NCBI GenBank assembly: GCA_903822005.1
Contig: CAIJNL010000036.1
Location: forward strand, 62,001-126,000
From: an uncultured Nitrospiraceae bacterium
GTDB lineage: Bacteria > Nitrospirota > Thermodesulfovibrionia > Thermodesulfovibrionales > Dissulfurispiraceae
Length of the DNA: 64,000 nucleotides
Direction: 5' to 3'
Shown here: positions 53,895-60,449 of the stretch, piece by piece
Layout of the letters: each line of letters starts with the position of its first letter
How positions within the stretch are numbered: position 1 is the first letter of the stretch
The notes under the pieces: generated by a model
Databases searched by the model: none
Told to the model about the DNA's origin: nothing
Seen by the model: only the letters and a program-made list of their open reading frames with translations
Made by a program: the position numbers and the translations under genes

Positions 53895-54800
53895 TCACAT
53901 GGTATTTTCCGAGTCCTGCATTGCCTGTTCTTTTGCCTGAAAATATTGATCAAAAATCGCCAGGGCTTTTTGAGTAAAACTCGTTGAATGCTTGTGTGTC
54001 AGTTTATAGCAGGTGTAAGCAGGCGGGGGATTGGTGAGGTAGTCAATGGAATAGTTACTGCGACAGGTTATAGCAGCGGCAACCACCTTTGGTACGATGG
54101 CCCATTGATCAGCTTCCTGCAGCAGACTGAACAGGAGGTTAGCGCTGTCAAGCCGCACACGGGGAGGGTTGAGAGAGCCCCACCAATGCTCGTGCCATGT
54201 CTGGAACTCGCGCCCCCATGGCATAAATAGTTCACGGTCCGGGTTGAGTGCCTCGGGTCTGATAAATGCATTGCCTTGCCTGGACGGACTGGCGAGACGG
54301 AGTACGACCATGGGTGAAGAAAAATACTTCGTGACTGTCACATGTGGATGGACGAGGTCCCGTAACACGAAAGCGACATCCACTTGACGCTTCTCTATTT
54401 CGAAATATAATTCTGTCGAGTGTGAAGTATGGATTTGCAGCTTGAAGGGAACCGGATGTTTGTTCAGTGCCCGATATACGGGCGGCATCACACAGGTATT
54501 GATACTGTCCACTGCACCGACCACCAGGGAGAGTTTAGGCCCGTGGGCTTGCAGGAGCTTGGCTTCCTGCCATATAAAACTCCACTGTTCAGCCAGTTTC
54601 AGAAATTCTTCGCCGGCCTGCGTGAGCTGTATGTTTTTAACGCCTTTCCCGCGGTTGATAAGTGTTAGCCCGATTTCCTGTTCCAGTACTTTAAGACGCT
54701 GGCTTATTGTCGTTTGGGCCAAATGCAATTCTGCGGCTGCCTTGCTGAAGCTTTGGGCCCTTACAACAACGAGAAAAGTTTCAATACCTAACGTATACAT
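53895..54800 (-). CDS. LysR-family transcriptional regulator
   Basis: The 301-residue regulator has the N-terminal winged helix (about 1-60; FLVVVRAQSFSKAAAELHLAQTTISQRLKVLE broken over helix-turn-helix and linker) and a periplasmic-binding-protein-like effector domain (about 90-290). LysR proteins usually bind DNA as tetramers and respond to a pathway metabolite. It is divergent from the MFS-dehydrogenase-NHL-selenoprotein operon, the usual arrangement for a LysR activator and its target, so that operon may answer both to it and to the GntR operator. Confidence 0.92.
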   Translation of the reverse strand: MYTLGIETFLVVVRAQSFSKAAAELHLAQTTISQRLKVLEQEIGLTLINRGKGVKNIQLTQAGEEFLKLAEQWSFIWQEAKLLQAHGPKLSLVVGAVDSINTCVMPPVYRALNKHPVPFKLQIHTSHSTELYFEIEKRQVDVAFVLRDLVHPHVTVTKYFSSPMVVLRLASPSRQGNAFIRPEALNPDRELFMPWGREFQTWHEHWWGSLNPPRVRLDSANLLFSLLQEADQWAIVPKVVAAAITCRSNYSIDYLTNPPPAYTCYKLTHKHSTSFTQKALAIFDQYFQAKEQAMQDSENTM

Positions 54801-55117: not shown

Positions 55118-56461
55118 ATGAAGGAAAAGTGCAGCAAGCCGACACGTTTTCGATGGGTAGTTCTTGTTCTCATCTTTTTGGCTTACATGATAGCAGGCGC
55201 AGACAGGGCCAACATCGGCATGGTTGTTCCATTCGTCAAAGACGAGTTCAAGCTCAGCAATACCGACATAGGCGCTATGTCGAGCCTCTTTTATATCGGG
55301 TATGCTGCCATACAGGTGCCCATAGGCCTTGTATACAGCAAGTACGGCGTTCGCATCATCTTTGTTGTTGCAATGATATTGACGTCGATTTCGACCTTTG
55401 TCATGGGATTTGTGAACAGCGGCTTCCAACTCAAGGCAGCCAGGGTCGCGCTCGGTATTGCCGAAGGACCGATCAATATAGGCATTGTCTCGACCATCAA
55501 CCGCTGGTACCCGCAAAAAGAAAAAGGGTTCGCCACAGGCGTATTCATGTCCTCTATCAAATTCGCTCCAGCTGTGGTACCGCCTCTTTGCGCAATAATC
55601 ATTCAGGCCTGGGGCTGGCGTGAAATCTTTTATATCTTTGCCATTCCGGGCTTTCTGATAGCCGCGCTATGGTTCTTTTTCGTAAAGGACAATCCGAAGG
55701 AGAGCAAGCACTGTTCAGAGGCTGAACTTAACTATATCCTAACTGAATCAGCACAGGGCGGCATTGATGCCGTAAAAACTCCTGCTGAAATTAAATCAGA
55801 CGACCGTTTCAGACTGCTTGACAAGATAATACGCAAAAAAGATGTCGAGCCTCTCGATACGCACCGCAAGGTATTAACTTCGTGGAACATATGGGCCTGC
55901 GCCTTCGGCTATTTCTTTATGGTAGGCATTGCTTATGCTATTATGACCTGGGTCCCGACCTATTTGATAAAGGTCAAGCACTTTTCGACGCTCAAGACAG
56001 GGCTTGTGGCAGCTACCCCATGGATCGGGGCCATCCTCGGCAATGTGCTCGGGGGCTGGCTTTCAGACAACGTATTCCAGAAACGCAGGAAGCCGCTTAT
56101 GCTTATAACTGCGGTCTCGACTATATTTACCATGTACTCGCTGCTTTACGCGCCTGACCAGATGTATCTGCTTGCGTTACTGCTCGGCGTTTGCGGCGTA
56201 TTCCTCAACCTTGGTTACTCCACATTCCTCGTATACCCGATGGGGATCGCGTCAAAGGACAAGCTGCCGTTTGCCGCTTCTATAGTAAACTGCATGGGTT
56301 CCCTTGGCGGCGCCTTTGCTCCGTTTGTTGTAGGGGTTATACTGGATTATCAGGGCTGGGACTGGGTATTCACGTTCCTGGCACTATGTTCAATAGGCAC
56401 TTTAATGGTGGTTGTCTCGATGATCGAGCCTTTTATGACCACTAAAAAGGCCTCTGCCTGA
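55118..56461 (+). CDS. MFS transporter, ACS type (third copy)
   Basis: The 447-residue twelve-helix carrier is the third member of the local set: GADRANIGMVVPFVKDEF, NTDIGAMSSLFYIGYA and SKYGVRIIFVVAMILTSI. It starts the operon that continues with a hydroxyacid dehydrogenase, an NHL protein and the selenoprotein, so it should bring in the organic acid handled there. GGGGG at 55109-55113 gives a usable ribosome site. Confidence 0.92.
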   Translation: MKEKCSKPTRFRWVVLVLIFLAYMIAGADRANIGMVVPFVKDEFKLSNTDIGAMSSLFYIGYAAIQVPIGLVYSKYGVRIIFVVAMILTSISTFVMGFVNSGFQLKAARVALGIAEGPINIGIVSTINRWYPQKEKGFATGVFMSSIKFAPAVVPPLCAIIIQAWGWREIFYIFAIPGFLIAALWFFFVKDNPKESKHCSEAELNYILTESAQGGIDAVKTPAEIKSDDRFRLLDKIIRKKDVEPLDTHRKVLTSWNIWACAFGYFFMVGIAYAIMTWVPTYLIKVKHFSTLKTGLVAATPWIGAILGNVLGGWLSDNVFQKRRKPLMLITAVSTIFTMYSLLYAPDQMYLLALLLGVCGVFLNLGYSTFLVYPMGIASKDKLPFAASIVNCMGSLGGAFAPFVVGVILDYQGWDWVFTFLALCSIGTLMVVVSMIEPFMTTKKASA

Positions 56462-56528: not shown

Positions 56529-57527
56529 ATGAAAGTAATGATTATTGAAAGCGTTCATGCCTCAGCGGTTGAACTGCTGGCAAAGAGCGCTGAGGTCGTA
56601 TTTCCGGAACCGCAGAACCTTGAGGGAATCCTCAAGGCCATAGTCGACTGCGACGGACTGATTGCAAGGGGCACGGCCGTTTCGCGTGAGGTTATGCTTG
56701 CAGGGCCGAAACTGAAGGCCATCGGCAGGCACGGAGTAGGTTATGACAGCGTTGATATAGCTGCTGCAACCGAACTAAGGATACCTGTTGTCTATACCCC
56801 GGCGGCCAACACTGAAAGTGTAGCCGAGCTGGCAGCCGGTTTTATCATCTGTGCGGGACGCAAGATCATCGAGGCCAACAGGTTCATGCAGTCCGAGAAG
56901 CTGCTGTCTGACACTGTTACAATGCAGGCCATGACAAAGCGTGTCGGGTTGGTCAACGCAAACATAGGGGGAAAGACCCTCGGTATTATAGGTGTCGGCA
57001 GGATAGGGTCTCTGATAGCCCAAAAAATGATCGCCGGCTTTAACATGAAAGTGCTGGGCTATGACCCGTATGTGGACGAGAAGACCCTTGCCGGTTACGG
57101 TGTCAAGAAGGTAGACAGGCTTGAGGACATGCTGCCACTGTGCGACTTTGTCTCCCTTAACTGCCCGGGCGGAGCCGAGACCCGCAAGATGATCAATGCC
57201 GCCACTTTGGCATTGATGAAGCCGAATGCCTACCTTATCAATACGGCACGCGGCAGTGTAGTGGATGAAGAGGCCCTTGTCAAAGCAGTCCGGTCAAAGA
57301 AGATCGCCGGCGCTGCCACTGATGTCTTTGATCCGGAGCCGCCAGTGAAGGGATCTCCGATTACTCATGAAGATGCCATTATCGTCACCCCGCATATTGG
57401 CGCCCAGACCGAAGAGAGCCTGATCAACATGGGAAGGGTTGTTGTTCAGGAAGTCCTCAGCGTGCTGGAGGGCAGGAAACCCCAGTTTTTTGTGAACCCT
57501 GAAGTCTGGGAGAAAAGAAGGAAATAA
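56529..57527 (+). CDS. D-isomer specific 2-hydroxyacid dehydrogenase
   Basis: The 332-residue NAD-dependent enzyme is close to the 3-phosphoglycerate dehydrogenase branch. The nucleotide-binding motif is GIIGVGRIG (152-160); the catalytic trio is Arg241 (NTARGSVVD), Glu270 (DPEPP) and His289 (PHIGAQT). It lacks the ACT domain of biosynthetic SerA, so it more likely oxidises or reduces an imported 2-hydroxy acid than makes serine. Within the operon it follows the MFS carrier after 67 nt; AGGAGG-like GGAGGAT precedes the ATG. Confidence 0.92.
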   Translation: MKVMIIESVHASAVELLAKSAEVVFPEPQNLEGILKAIVDCDGLIARGTAVSREVMLAGPKLKAIGRHGVGYDSVDIAAATELRIPVVYTPAANTESVAELAAGFIICAGRKIIEANRFMQSEKLLSDTVTMQAMTKRVGLVNANIGGKTLGIIGVGRIGSLIAQKMIAGFNMKVLGYDPYVDEKTLAGYGVKKVDRLEDMLPLCDFVSLNCPGGAETRKMINAATLALMKPNAYLINTARGSVVDEEALVKAVRSKKIAGAATDVFDPEPPVKGSPITHEDAIIVTPHIGAQTEESLINMGRVVVQEVLSVLEGRKPQFFVNPEVWEKRRK

Positions 57528-57555: not shown

Positions 57556-57634
57556 GAGCCGGTCTTAAGATGATATTTGTCCGGCCGGTTAGTTAAAATA
57601 AGGACAATTGAACTATCAAGGGAGGATTCAGACT

Positions 57635-58606
57635 ATGGCTGTTGTACCGAAATTTGAAGTTATCGAGGGATGGGAGAAGCTCCCGAAGGGCTATATTCAC
57701 AAGGACGTGGACGGAGTCGGGGTCGACTCCAAAGACAACGTCTATCTGATGACCAGGCAGGACGCCCGCGTGCTCGTATATGACAAGAACGGAAACTTTG
57801 TTCGCTCCTGGGGTGAGGACATCTTCACGCCGAGGACCCACGGCATTGCTGTTGTGGATGACTTTGTATACTCGGTTGATGACGGGGACCACACAGTGCG
57901 GAAATTCACGCTCGAAGGCAAACAGCTGATGATGATCGGCACTCCCGGAAAGTCGTCAGACACCGGGTATGACGGCAAGACGATCGCAAGCATACAGAAG
58001 GGGGCGGCGCCTTTCAACCGGCCTACGGATGTTGCCATTGCTCCGGACGGAGAGATCTATGTCTGCGACGGGTACGGCAACGCCCGCGTACACCGCTTCA
58101 AGGCTGACGGCACCCTGATCCAGTCCTGGGGCGAGCCGGGCATTAAGCCGGGCGAGTTTCATCTGCCGCATGGTATCGGCATTTCTCCTGACAACCGCGT
58201 ATTTGTGACAGACAGGGAGAACGACAGGATTCAGATATTCGACCGTGACGGCAAGTTCCTCGAGATGTGGGAGCATGTACAGAGGCCCACAGATATAAGT
58301 TTTGATAAAGAAGGCCGGGTTTATGTCTCCGAACTCTGGTGGCGCGTAGGGCAGAATTCCTTTACCCGCGGCAAGATCAACTATGATCTGCCGGGCGGCG
58401 TGCGTATTCTTGACCTCAAGGGCAACATTCTCAGTCACTGGTGCAGCGCAGACCGCGAGGCTGCCGGAAACTTTGTCGCGCCGCATACCCTTTGCGTCGA
58501 TTCCCGCGGAGACCTTTATGTGGGCGAAGTGACCTGGACCTTTGGCATCAACCTGGGCGGAGTGAGCGACGGCGCGCATACCTTCCAGAAGTTCGCGCGC
58601 AAGTAA
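57635..58606 (+). CDS. NHL-repeat beta-propeller protein
   Basis: The 323-residue protein consists of NHL-type repeats: VGVDSKDNVYLMTRQDARVLVYD, FNRPTDVAIAPDG..YVCDGYGNARVHRF, LPHGIGISPDNRVFVTD and LCVDSRGDLYVGE each match one blade, giving a six-bladed propeller. It resembles the catalytic core of peptidyl-alpha-hydroxyglycine alpha-amidating lyase, but no signal peptide is seen. ATG 57635 is set by AGGGAGG upstream. The selenoprotein gene follows after 12 nt, so the two are probably made together and may act on the same substrate. Confidence 0.88.
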   Translation: MAVVPKFEVIEGWEKLPKGYIHKDVDGVGVDSKDNVYLMTRQDARVLVYDKNGNFVRSWGEDIFTPRTHGIAVVDDFVYSVDDGDHTVRKFTLEGKQLMMIGTPGKSSDTGYDGKTIASIQKGAAPFNRPTDVAIAPDGEIYVCDGYGNARVHRFKADGTLIQSWGEPGIKPGEFHLPHGIGISPDNRVFVTDRENDRIQIFDRDGKFLEMWEHVQRPTDISFDKEGRVYVSELWWRVGQNSFTRGKINYDLPGGVRILDLKGNILSHWCSADREAAGNFVAPHTLCVDSRGDLYVGEVTWTFGINLGGVSDGAHTFQKFARK

Positions 58607-58618
58607 AAAGGAGAAATC

Positions 58619-60373
58619 ATGAGACGAACGTTCATTACATGCCTCGTCTTTGCCCTGAGTATCGGTGCTGCTTTAATGCTGCCGTCGATATCAGTCGCAA
58701 AAGACCTGGGACAGGAGTGGGAAGTAATTAATCCCGCCGGCGTGATCCAGATCAAGCAGGAGCAGCTCGCTCCGCGGCTGACCACTCTGGAGGGAAAGAC
58801 CATCGTGCTTCGTTGGAACGGCAAACACAATGGCGACAACTTTCTTAACAGGATTGCGGAACTTCTAAAGGAAAGAATTCCGAGTGCAAAGGTAATCAAG
58901 CTGTACGAAGTCGACAAGTCTACAATCAGGCAGAGCGGGTCAGTGGATGTAGCGGCCCAGATCGCGCAGGTGATAAAGGGATTGAAGGCCGATATTGTTA
59001 TCGCGGCCCAGACCGATTGAGGGTCCTGTACTTCATGGCTGGTGGTCGACCAGTCCCAGGTTGAAAAAGTCGGAATACCCACGGTAACAGCTTCATCCGA
59101 TCAATTTGTAGGGTTAGCGAGAAGCACGGTAAAGAGCCTTGGCCTTCCTGACATGGCTTTCGTTGAAGTGGAGCATCCTCTCGGCATGATACCTCTGGAT
59201 GAGATCCGGGCAAAGGCCGATATGGCATTCCCGAAGATCGTGCAGATGGCGACCCAGTGGAAGCCGAATTTGACGGCCATACAAAAGATCACGCCTGCTT
59301 ATCCGGCAGAGAGGATTAGGTTCAAGGGCACCTATGACGCACTCAACAAGATGTTTTATGACAAGGGGTTGTCTATCGGATTGCCTGTAATACCTCCTAC
59401 GCCCGAGAAGGTGGCAGATATGCTCAAGGGCACTACCCGCAAGCCTGGCGAGATAGTCTGGGCAGTACCGCCAAGAATGGGGCAGCTTACGGTCGAGCTT
59501 GTCGCGGCTTATGGAGTAATGGCAGGCTGCAAACCAGAGCATATGCCTTTGCTGCTTGCAGTAGTCAAGGCCCTGAGCCATCCTGATTATGACTGGAGGG
59601 GCAGTACCTCCACTACAGCTCCGACAAACCCGGTGATAATAATCAACGGACCGATACTTGATGAACTTGGTATAGGATATTCCACCGGCGCGCTCGGCGG
59701 AGAAATGCCTGTGAATATCGCAGTCGGATATTTCATCAATCTTGTCGGCGATATCATCGGAGGATCGGTTCCTCCTGTGAATGACAAGAGCACTCTCGGA
59801 AGCCGTGCCGACCTGGTAGCAATCGTCATCGGCGAAAACGAGAAGGCGAACCCATGGAAGCAGTCCTATGCAGTAGAGCAGGGGTTCAAACCGACAGATA
59901 ATGTTGTTACCGCATATTCTTCGTATATGGGGAGCAATAATATTGATCACAGCAGCGTAAAGAGCACGCATCTGTTGAATACGATAGCGGCCGGCATCGC
60001 AGGCGCCGGAAGCGGTATCACAAGCTGCCTCACCCGGATGGACAAGGGCTATGCCTCCACTAACAAGGTAAAATTCGTATTCGTATTTTTCGGTCCTGAA
60101 CATGCCGACACCGTTTACAGGGATTTCAAGACAAAGAAAGAGACTTCTGAATACCTTGTGAAAAAAACGGCGCTGCCGTTCTGGATGTATGCGCCCGATA
60201 TCTGCATTCCTCCGAAAGAGTTCGGTCCGTATGATGAGAACACCCTTATTCCGCGCTTCACCGCCGCTGAGCAGGTACGTATAATTGTGACCGGTGGTCC
60301 CGGGAAACAGTCCCAGATCTGGCCTACCTTCACAACGGTGGCAAGGCCTGTTTCGGTGCTTGTAGAAAAGTAA
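58619..60373 (+). CDS. UGSC-family selenoprotein with in-frame UGA (Sec134)
   Basis: Reading TGA 59018-59020 as selenocysteine joins two adjacent same-frame stretches into one 584-codon gene. The codons around it give QTD-U-GSCTSW, the UGSC motif of the known UGSC (seleno)protein family, whose domain spans about residues 25-240 (LAPRLTTLEGKTIVLRWNGK, then VEKVGIPTVTASSDQF after Sec). A second domain (about 245-584; FYDKGLSIGLPVIPPTPEKV, AYGVMAGCKPEHMP) is a family often found beside UGSC proteins and is fused here. An N-terminal signal peptide (about 1-27) predicts export. A SECIS-like hairpin follows the UGA. Biochemical role unknown; a redox CxxC-like use of Sec134/Cys137 is inferred. Confidence 0.93.
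59037..59055 (+). promoter_or_regulatory. Bacterial SECIS-like hairpin
   Basis: Stem CTGGT (59039-59043) / ACCAG (59049-59053), extended by G-U and G-C pairs, with loop GGTCG. The loop begins 24 nt after the UGA and carries GGUC, like the apical loop of the E. coli fdhF SECIS that SelB binds. It lies within the coding frame as expected for bacteria. Confidence 0.75.
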
Positions 60374-60394: not shown

Positions 60395-60429
60395 AAAAAG
60401 GGGGAGCCTTTGCGGTTCCCCCTTTTTTT
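60395..60429. terminator. Bidirectional terminator
   Basis: AAAAAGGGGGA / TCCCCC followed by seven T, with inner CC/GG pairs. It closes the selenoprotein operon and, on the other strand, the convergent MFS gene at 60450. Confidence 0.92.
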
Positions 60430-60449
60430 GTGATGACCTGTCTGTATTC

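Follow-up and report, generated by a model that had tools for sequence, protein, structure and literature searches.

The window analysed here, 64 kb of a contig from an uncultured Nitrospiraceae bacterium, contains a reading frame (58619-60373) whose sole interruption is one TGA, which raises the question whether this triplet terminates a short gene or encodes selenocysteine (Sec) within a longer one. Under table 11 the frame falls into a 133-aa stub and, from GTG 59042, a 443-aa ORF, exactly the split that the initial annotation had expected of standard gene calling; its account of the uninterrupted reading, one frame open across the TGA with the codons D-U-G-S-C-T-S-W and 584 residues in all, was likewise exact. 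A ribosome-binding GGAG (58610-58613) precedes the start at 58619, and a GC-rich inverted repeat with a T run was seen in the sequence 3' of the gene (approximately 60398-60430). The N-terminus (MRRTFITCLVFALSIGAALMLPSISVA-KD) has the appearance of a standard signal peptide, judged by eye and by hydropathy, and the signal peptide that had been assigned to the first half of the protein is recovered on these grounds. By comparison with its relatives, the gene almost certainly encodes a single exported selenoprotein with Sec at this UGA. The features of the locus are collected in Table 1.

Table 1. Features of the selenoprotein locus and its upstream neighbours (window coordinates)
Feature	Position	Strand	Basis or remark
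Predicted fused UGSC selenoprotein gene	58619..60373	+	Complete frame, 584 residues with TGA read as Sec, TAA stop
Signal peptide, residues 1-27	58619..58699	+	Sequence; cleavage expected after SVA
UGSC domain, residues 35-212, flavodoxin-like alpha/beta model	58721..59254	+	PF24696 E 1.5e-38; NF041046; fold neighbours
In-frame TGA, Sec134	59018..59020	+	TGA in 7/7 own copies and 53/61 relatives, Cys in 8 (search for Sec or Cys)
Cys137 of the UGSC motif	59027..59029	+	Invariant in 48 aligned UGSC domains
SECIS-like hairpin, loop GGTCG	59037..59055 (core stem 59039-59053)	+	Hairpin scoring across the family
C-terminal partner domain, residues 225-584, unnamed family	59291..60370	+	No family model; confident structure model
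NHL-repeat protein, upstream	57608..58606	+	Stop 12 nt before the selenoprotein ATG
D-2-hydroxyacid dehydrogenase family gene, upstream	56529..57527	+	
MFS transporter, upstream	55118..56461	+	
LysR-type regulator, divergent	53895..54800	-	

Conservation of the UGSC domain across the in-frame TGA

The family named in the initial annotation was confirmed by two models that match on both sides of the TGA, Pfam UGSC PF24696 with 133 bits (cut-off 25) and NCBIfam NF041046 'UGSC family (seleno)protein' with 127.5 (cut-off 125). A motif search that admitted only Sec or Cys letters at the Sec site returned 61 sites from other bacteria, 53 with TGA and 8 with a Cys codon, so that the Cys homologues that might have been expected at residue 134 do exist. 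In the search of the phylum every match to the UGSC model had TGA at this site. Across 48 aligned UGSC domains the first three residues and the second Cys of the motif D-U/C-G-x-C are invariant, and Cys137 is likely the redox partner of Sec134.

The frame remains open for 450 codons 3' of the TGA, and this part has homologues across phyla and is under purifying selection. Close paralogues have dN/dS values of 0.08-0.15 in the part upstream of the TGA and of 0.06-0.13 in the part downstream; together with the homologues, these values rule out a frame that is open by chance. A general reassignment of UGA was also rejected, since 20 of the window's 50 longest non-overlapping ORFs end with TGA as an ordinary stop.

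Domain architecture and copies in the genome

Residues 225-584 correspond to no Pfam or NCBIfam model, and a scan of 65 members of this C-terminal family gave one single match at chance level. The structure model of the domain is confident (pLDDT 89.8); a fold search with it returned no clear neighbour, and two-subunit fumarate hydratase, cyclic amide hydrolases and chorismate mutase, matched at Z ≤5.5 only, were rejected. Neither domain had a match in PDB sequence searches. In other bacteria the partner is either fused to the UGSC domain or, usually, encoded by the adjoining gene, downstream or upstream, which holds for nearly all loci. The domain described at the outset as usually encoded separately is indeed the product of a neighbouring gene in most relatives.

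A fusion termed UGSC/Unknown_1 was reported in 2008 in the Global Ocean Sampling selenoproteome (PMC2398784, Figure S1A). Like the protein studied here, it joins UGSC to an unknown domain in one chain, although Unknown_1 may be another family than our C-terminal one, and the accessible part of that report mentions no export, expansion or link to GrdB. The fused, exported UGSC selenoprotein proposed in the initial annotation is supported, while the fusion of UGSC as such had already been described. With the UGSC family at large (PF24696, NF041046; 'UGSC-containing protein' in 2008) the protein shares the domain, the motif, the Sec/Cys site and the SECIS-like hairpin; it differs in being exported, in its fusion to a partner of about 360 residues and in its seven copies in one genome.

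These seven fusions of UGSC and partner were found in a genome of 3.23 Mb (48 contigs). They share one layout, in which a single in-frame TGA falls at D-U-G-S-C, and identity to the 58619-60373 protein ranges from 29 to 82% among the other six. Three exported paralogues consist of the partner only, without a UGSC domain (C35:847-2187, C18:268068-269360, C46:6811-8145), each directly downstream of a fused gene; the same tandem of fused and partner-only genes was seen in Desulfovibrio and Mailhella loci. Regarding export, a strongly hydrophobic N-terminus is present in the fused proteins of the own clade (Desulfovibrionaceae, Syntrophaceae, Bacillota, Nitrospirota) and weak or absent in most relatives outside this exported clade.

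Within the phylum the UGSC family occurs in 3 of 396 genomes, namely the present one, one of the same genus and one of the same order, the latter two with one UGSC copy each. In the tree four own copies fall into one clade with the same-genus copy, two group with a same-order and a Syntrophaceae copy and one stands beside a Syntrophaceae sequence, a placement to which duplication and transfer have probably both contributed. The copy at C14:198467-200146 (L007) is far nearer to a Syntrophaceae sequence (L115) than to its own paralogues, which suggests a recent transfer.

A SECIS-like hairpin downstream of the TGA

As noted in the initial annotation, a 5-bp hairpin with a GGUC-containing loop begins 19 nt past the TGA. 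Its core (CTGGT-GGTCG-ACCAG) can be extended to 7 pairs, which places the stem 17-35 nt after the UGA with GGUCG in the loop, within the bacterial SECIS definition of a hairpin with a G in the apical loop 16-37 nt after the UGA. Taken alone, the gene's own hairpin is unremarkable, as 18.7% of synonymous shuffles score as well (p 0.19). Across the family the mean hairpin score is 18.3 at 60 TGA sites, which are related to one another and do not constitute 60 independent tests, against 9.1 in synonymous-shuffle controls; at the 8 Cys sites it is 3.9 against 4.9. The predicted hairpin of bacterial type is thus retained only where the codon is TGA. Family-wide, the GU-loop hairpin sits at one of two fixed distances after the TGA, and the paralogue L007 has kept it with an entirely different stem sequence. 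The support for a SECIS element comes from this family-wide pattern and not from the single hairpin of the 58619-60373 gene.

Selenocysteine machinery and a split selC

The initial annotation had pointed to selA, selB, selC and selD as the genes to look for. We found selA, selB and selD in the genome, all above the model cut-offs, and selC in two halves instead of an intact gene. The selD gene (C14:43911-44825) carries one in-frame TGA of its own and probably encodes a selenoprotein itself. An Rfam scan found no intact tRNA-Sec gene in the assembly; of the three best Rfam tRNA-Sec matches, two proved to be tRNA-Ser and one to be the 3' half of selC.

With the intact selC of the same-genus genome (G001) as query of a DNA search, the 5' 42 nt were located on contig C26 at 105360-105401 (L090 5361-5402) and the 3' 69 nt on contig C48 from 32503 (C48:32503-32588; L023 1521-1588). 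On C26 the sequence ...CCCGGACTTCAAAT passes into unrelated AT-rich DNA, and on C48 unrelated DNA is followed by CTTCAAATCCGG...CGCTCCCGCCA. Both halves have in common the octamer CTTCAAAT, which is located in the anticodon loop, and the anticodon loop of tRNA genes is a usual crossover site of integrases. The four genes 3' of the C48 half are collinear with the selC locus of G001, so this half lies at its native place. Apparently an inserted element has split selC at the anticodon loop; the break has the look of an integrative element, 34 kb or longer, whose insertion left the tRNA unrestored. The element brings no replacement 3' half, and no integrase adjoining the split selC was found on C26 or C48. 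The explanation may be excision of the element, its presence in only part of the population, an intact copy that was overlooked or a very recent loss of decoding; that all UGSC frames are intact argues against an old loss.

The protein could accordingly be a former selenoprotein, now dead because the element interrupted selC, as the joining of both halves to unrelated DNA at the shared octamer and the collinearity of the right flank with the intact G001 locus would suggest. However, the seven UGSC frames and selD are intact with a single TGA each, which leaves room only for a very recent loss, for an insertion in part of the population or for excision; we consider this reading improbable. Far less credit is due to a true stop at this UGA, which would leave an exported 133-aa stub and an independent 443-aa protein from GTG 59042, as in the table 11 output, and would agree with the lack of an intact selC in the assembly. 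The UGSC domain would be halved by such a stop, TGA or Cys occupies the same position across phyla and constraint is equal on either side of it; moreover, no ribosome-binding site was seen in the sequence before GTG 59042, and the 443-aa product would have no signal peptide. Least credible of all is a suppressor tRNA that inserts some other amino acid, which would fit the lack of an intact tRNA-Sec in the scan, in view of selA, selB and selD in the genome, a hairpin tied to TGA, Cys as the sole alternative residue found by a search for Sec and Cys, and the use of TGA as a stop elsewhere. Decoding of this UGA as Sec, at present or until recently, has in our assessment a very high probability.

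Relationship to GrdB

The whole-protein model has a pLDDT of 76. Its residues 57-238 have flavodoxin-like and Rossmann-like neighbours (Z up to 12.2, about 3 Å over 120-140 residues), with no thioredoxins among the fold matches listed for the UGSC domain model, and within the flavodoxin-like fold it has Sec134 and Cys137 where a helix begins. Aligned with the profile of GrdB (glycine/sarcosine/betaine reductase selenoprotein B; PF07355, TIGR01917), the UGSC profile gave an hhalign probability of 96.5% (E 9e-10, 100 columns) with Sec over Sec, the alignment being limited to the last 100 columns of GrdB. Weak matches to glycine reductase B were obtained for 25 of 48 UGSC members and to PrdB for 14, the commonest families other than UGSC, and the blocks E..GIP.V and HP.G are conserved in both GrdB and UGSC. 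By the profile match and the weak GrdB matches, the UGSC domain is homologous to the C-terminal Sec domain of GrdB. The 58619-60373 protein itself gave no match to the GRDB model, and the matches of other members stayed far below its cut-off. By its domain content it is not a GrdB, because it has neither the N-terminal half (about 320 residues) nor a GrdE partner, the C-terminal family showing no similarity to the GrdE and GrdB profiles; it further differs from GrdB in being exported. The D-proline reductase PrdB (TIGR04483) and short GrdB-like selenoproteins also share the UxxC motif, with a weaker profile match (E 4e-5) and the same differences as GrdB. In genomes of Chloroflexota, Syntrophaceae and Nitrospirota, L176, L179, L180 and comparable loci hold open UxxC frames that match the C-terminal part of the GRDB model and apparently encode short GrdB/PrdB-like selenoproteins. 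That the selenoprotein reading, the two-domain architecture and the GrdB homology all hold jointly is, in our view, probable.

Gene neighbourhood and possible function

The NHL-repeat gene and the selenoprotein gene are probably on the same transcript. Around the own gene and selected relatives we found transporters, 2-hydroxyacid dehydrogenases, an FAA hydrolase, a creatininase family protein, a CoA-transferase and an acyl-CoA dehydrogenase. In an Alcaligenaceae MAG (L107:8560-10515) selB lies directly downstream of a UGSC pair encoded by separate genes, and both adjoin CoA-transferase, acyl-CoA dehydrogenase and TctC genes, an arrangement that may be a portable selenium cassette.

On comparative evidence, SelB and the hairpin just downstream would decode the UGA as Sec. 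The Sec would attack a substrate carbon of a small organic acid, whose carbon-heteroatom bond would be reductively cleaved, and the selenium would be resolved by Cys137, with the C-terminal domain binding the substrate or passing electrons. The sevenfold set would provide variants suited to different substrates, some of them encoded next to transporter or catabolic genes of their own. Homology to GrdB makes bond cleavage with Sec as the nucleophile the most likely job of the protein, a tentative assignment to which we give slightly less than an even chance. GrdB-like proteins occur as sets of substrate-specific copies, and one has been implicated in the cleavage of the C-F bond of fluoroacetate (PMC10838667); taken with the GrdB homology and the neighbouring genes, such sets point to small organic acids as copy-specific substrates. 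The substrate is not fixed by the homology. The missing N-terminal half of GrdB and a C-terminal domain unlike GrdE count against GrdB-like chemistry and leave room for a different reaction; nor did we identify a donor of electrons to an exported reductase.

The protein might instead be a selenoprotein of the thioredoxin type, a thiol/selenol oxidoreductase that reduces proteins or peroxides and does not cleave substrates reductively. The UxxC motif would suit this activity, a Trx-like fold was assumed in the accessible part of the 2008 paper (PMC2398784), and most uncharacterised selenoproteins are thought in the literature to be redox enzymes. However, the flavodoxin- and Rossmann-like neighbours listed for the model, the profile homology to GrdB and the catabolic and transporter genes nearby speak against it, and we regard a thioredoxin-type function as rather unlikely. 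As a wider and doubtful conjecture, the family may comprise exported, substrate-specific reductive-cleavage selenoenzymes that combine a GrdB-type Sec domain with a new partner family and are present sevenfold, like reductive dehalogenases elsewhere, their decoding possibly switched by a mobile element in the selC anticodon loop.

Implications for the UGSC family

UGSC selenoproteins and, from the accessible part of the report, one fusion to an unknown domain have been known since 2008 (PMC2398784), and a 2026 review lists UGSC without a function. In our literature search, which reached a minority of subscription journals, no paper connected UGSC with Desulfovibrio, with GrdB or with any function. 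What appears to be new is the clade of exported proteins, the set of seven in one genome, the unnamed family that constantly accompanies UGSC as partner, the homology to GrdB and the splitting of selC. Gene finders split such genes in two and would thereby overlook a family of seven selenoenzymes in a single genome. UGSC proteins are among the commonest selenoproteins of aquatic microbes and have been without a function since 2008; a direct test of their function is now within reach through the homology to GrdB, the constancy of the partner family and the catabolic genes nearby.
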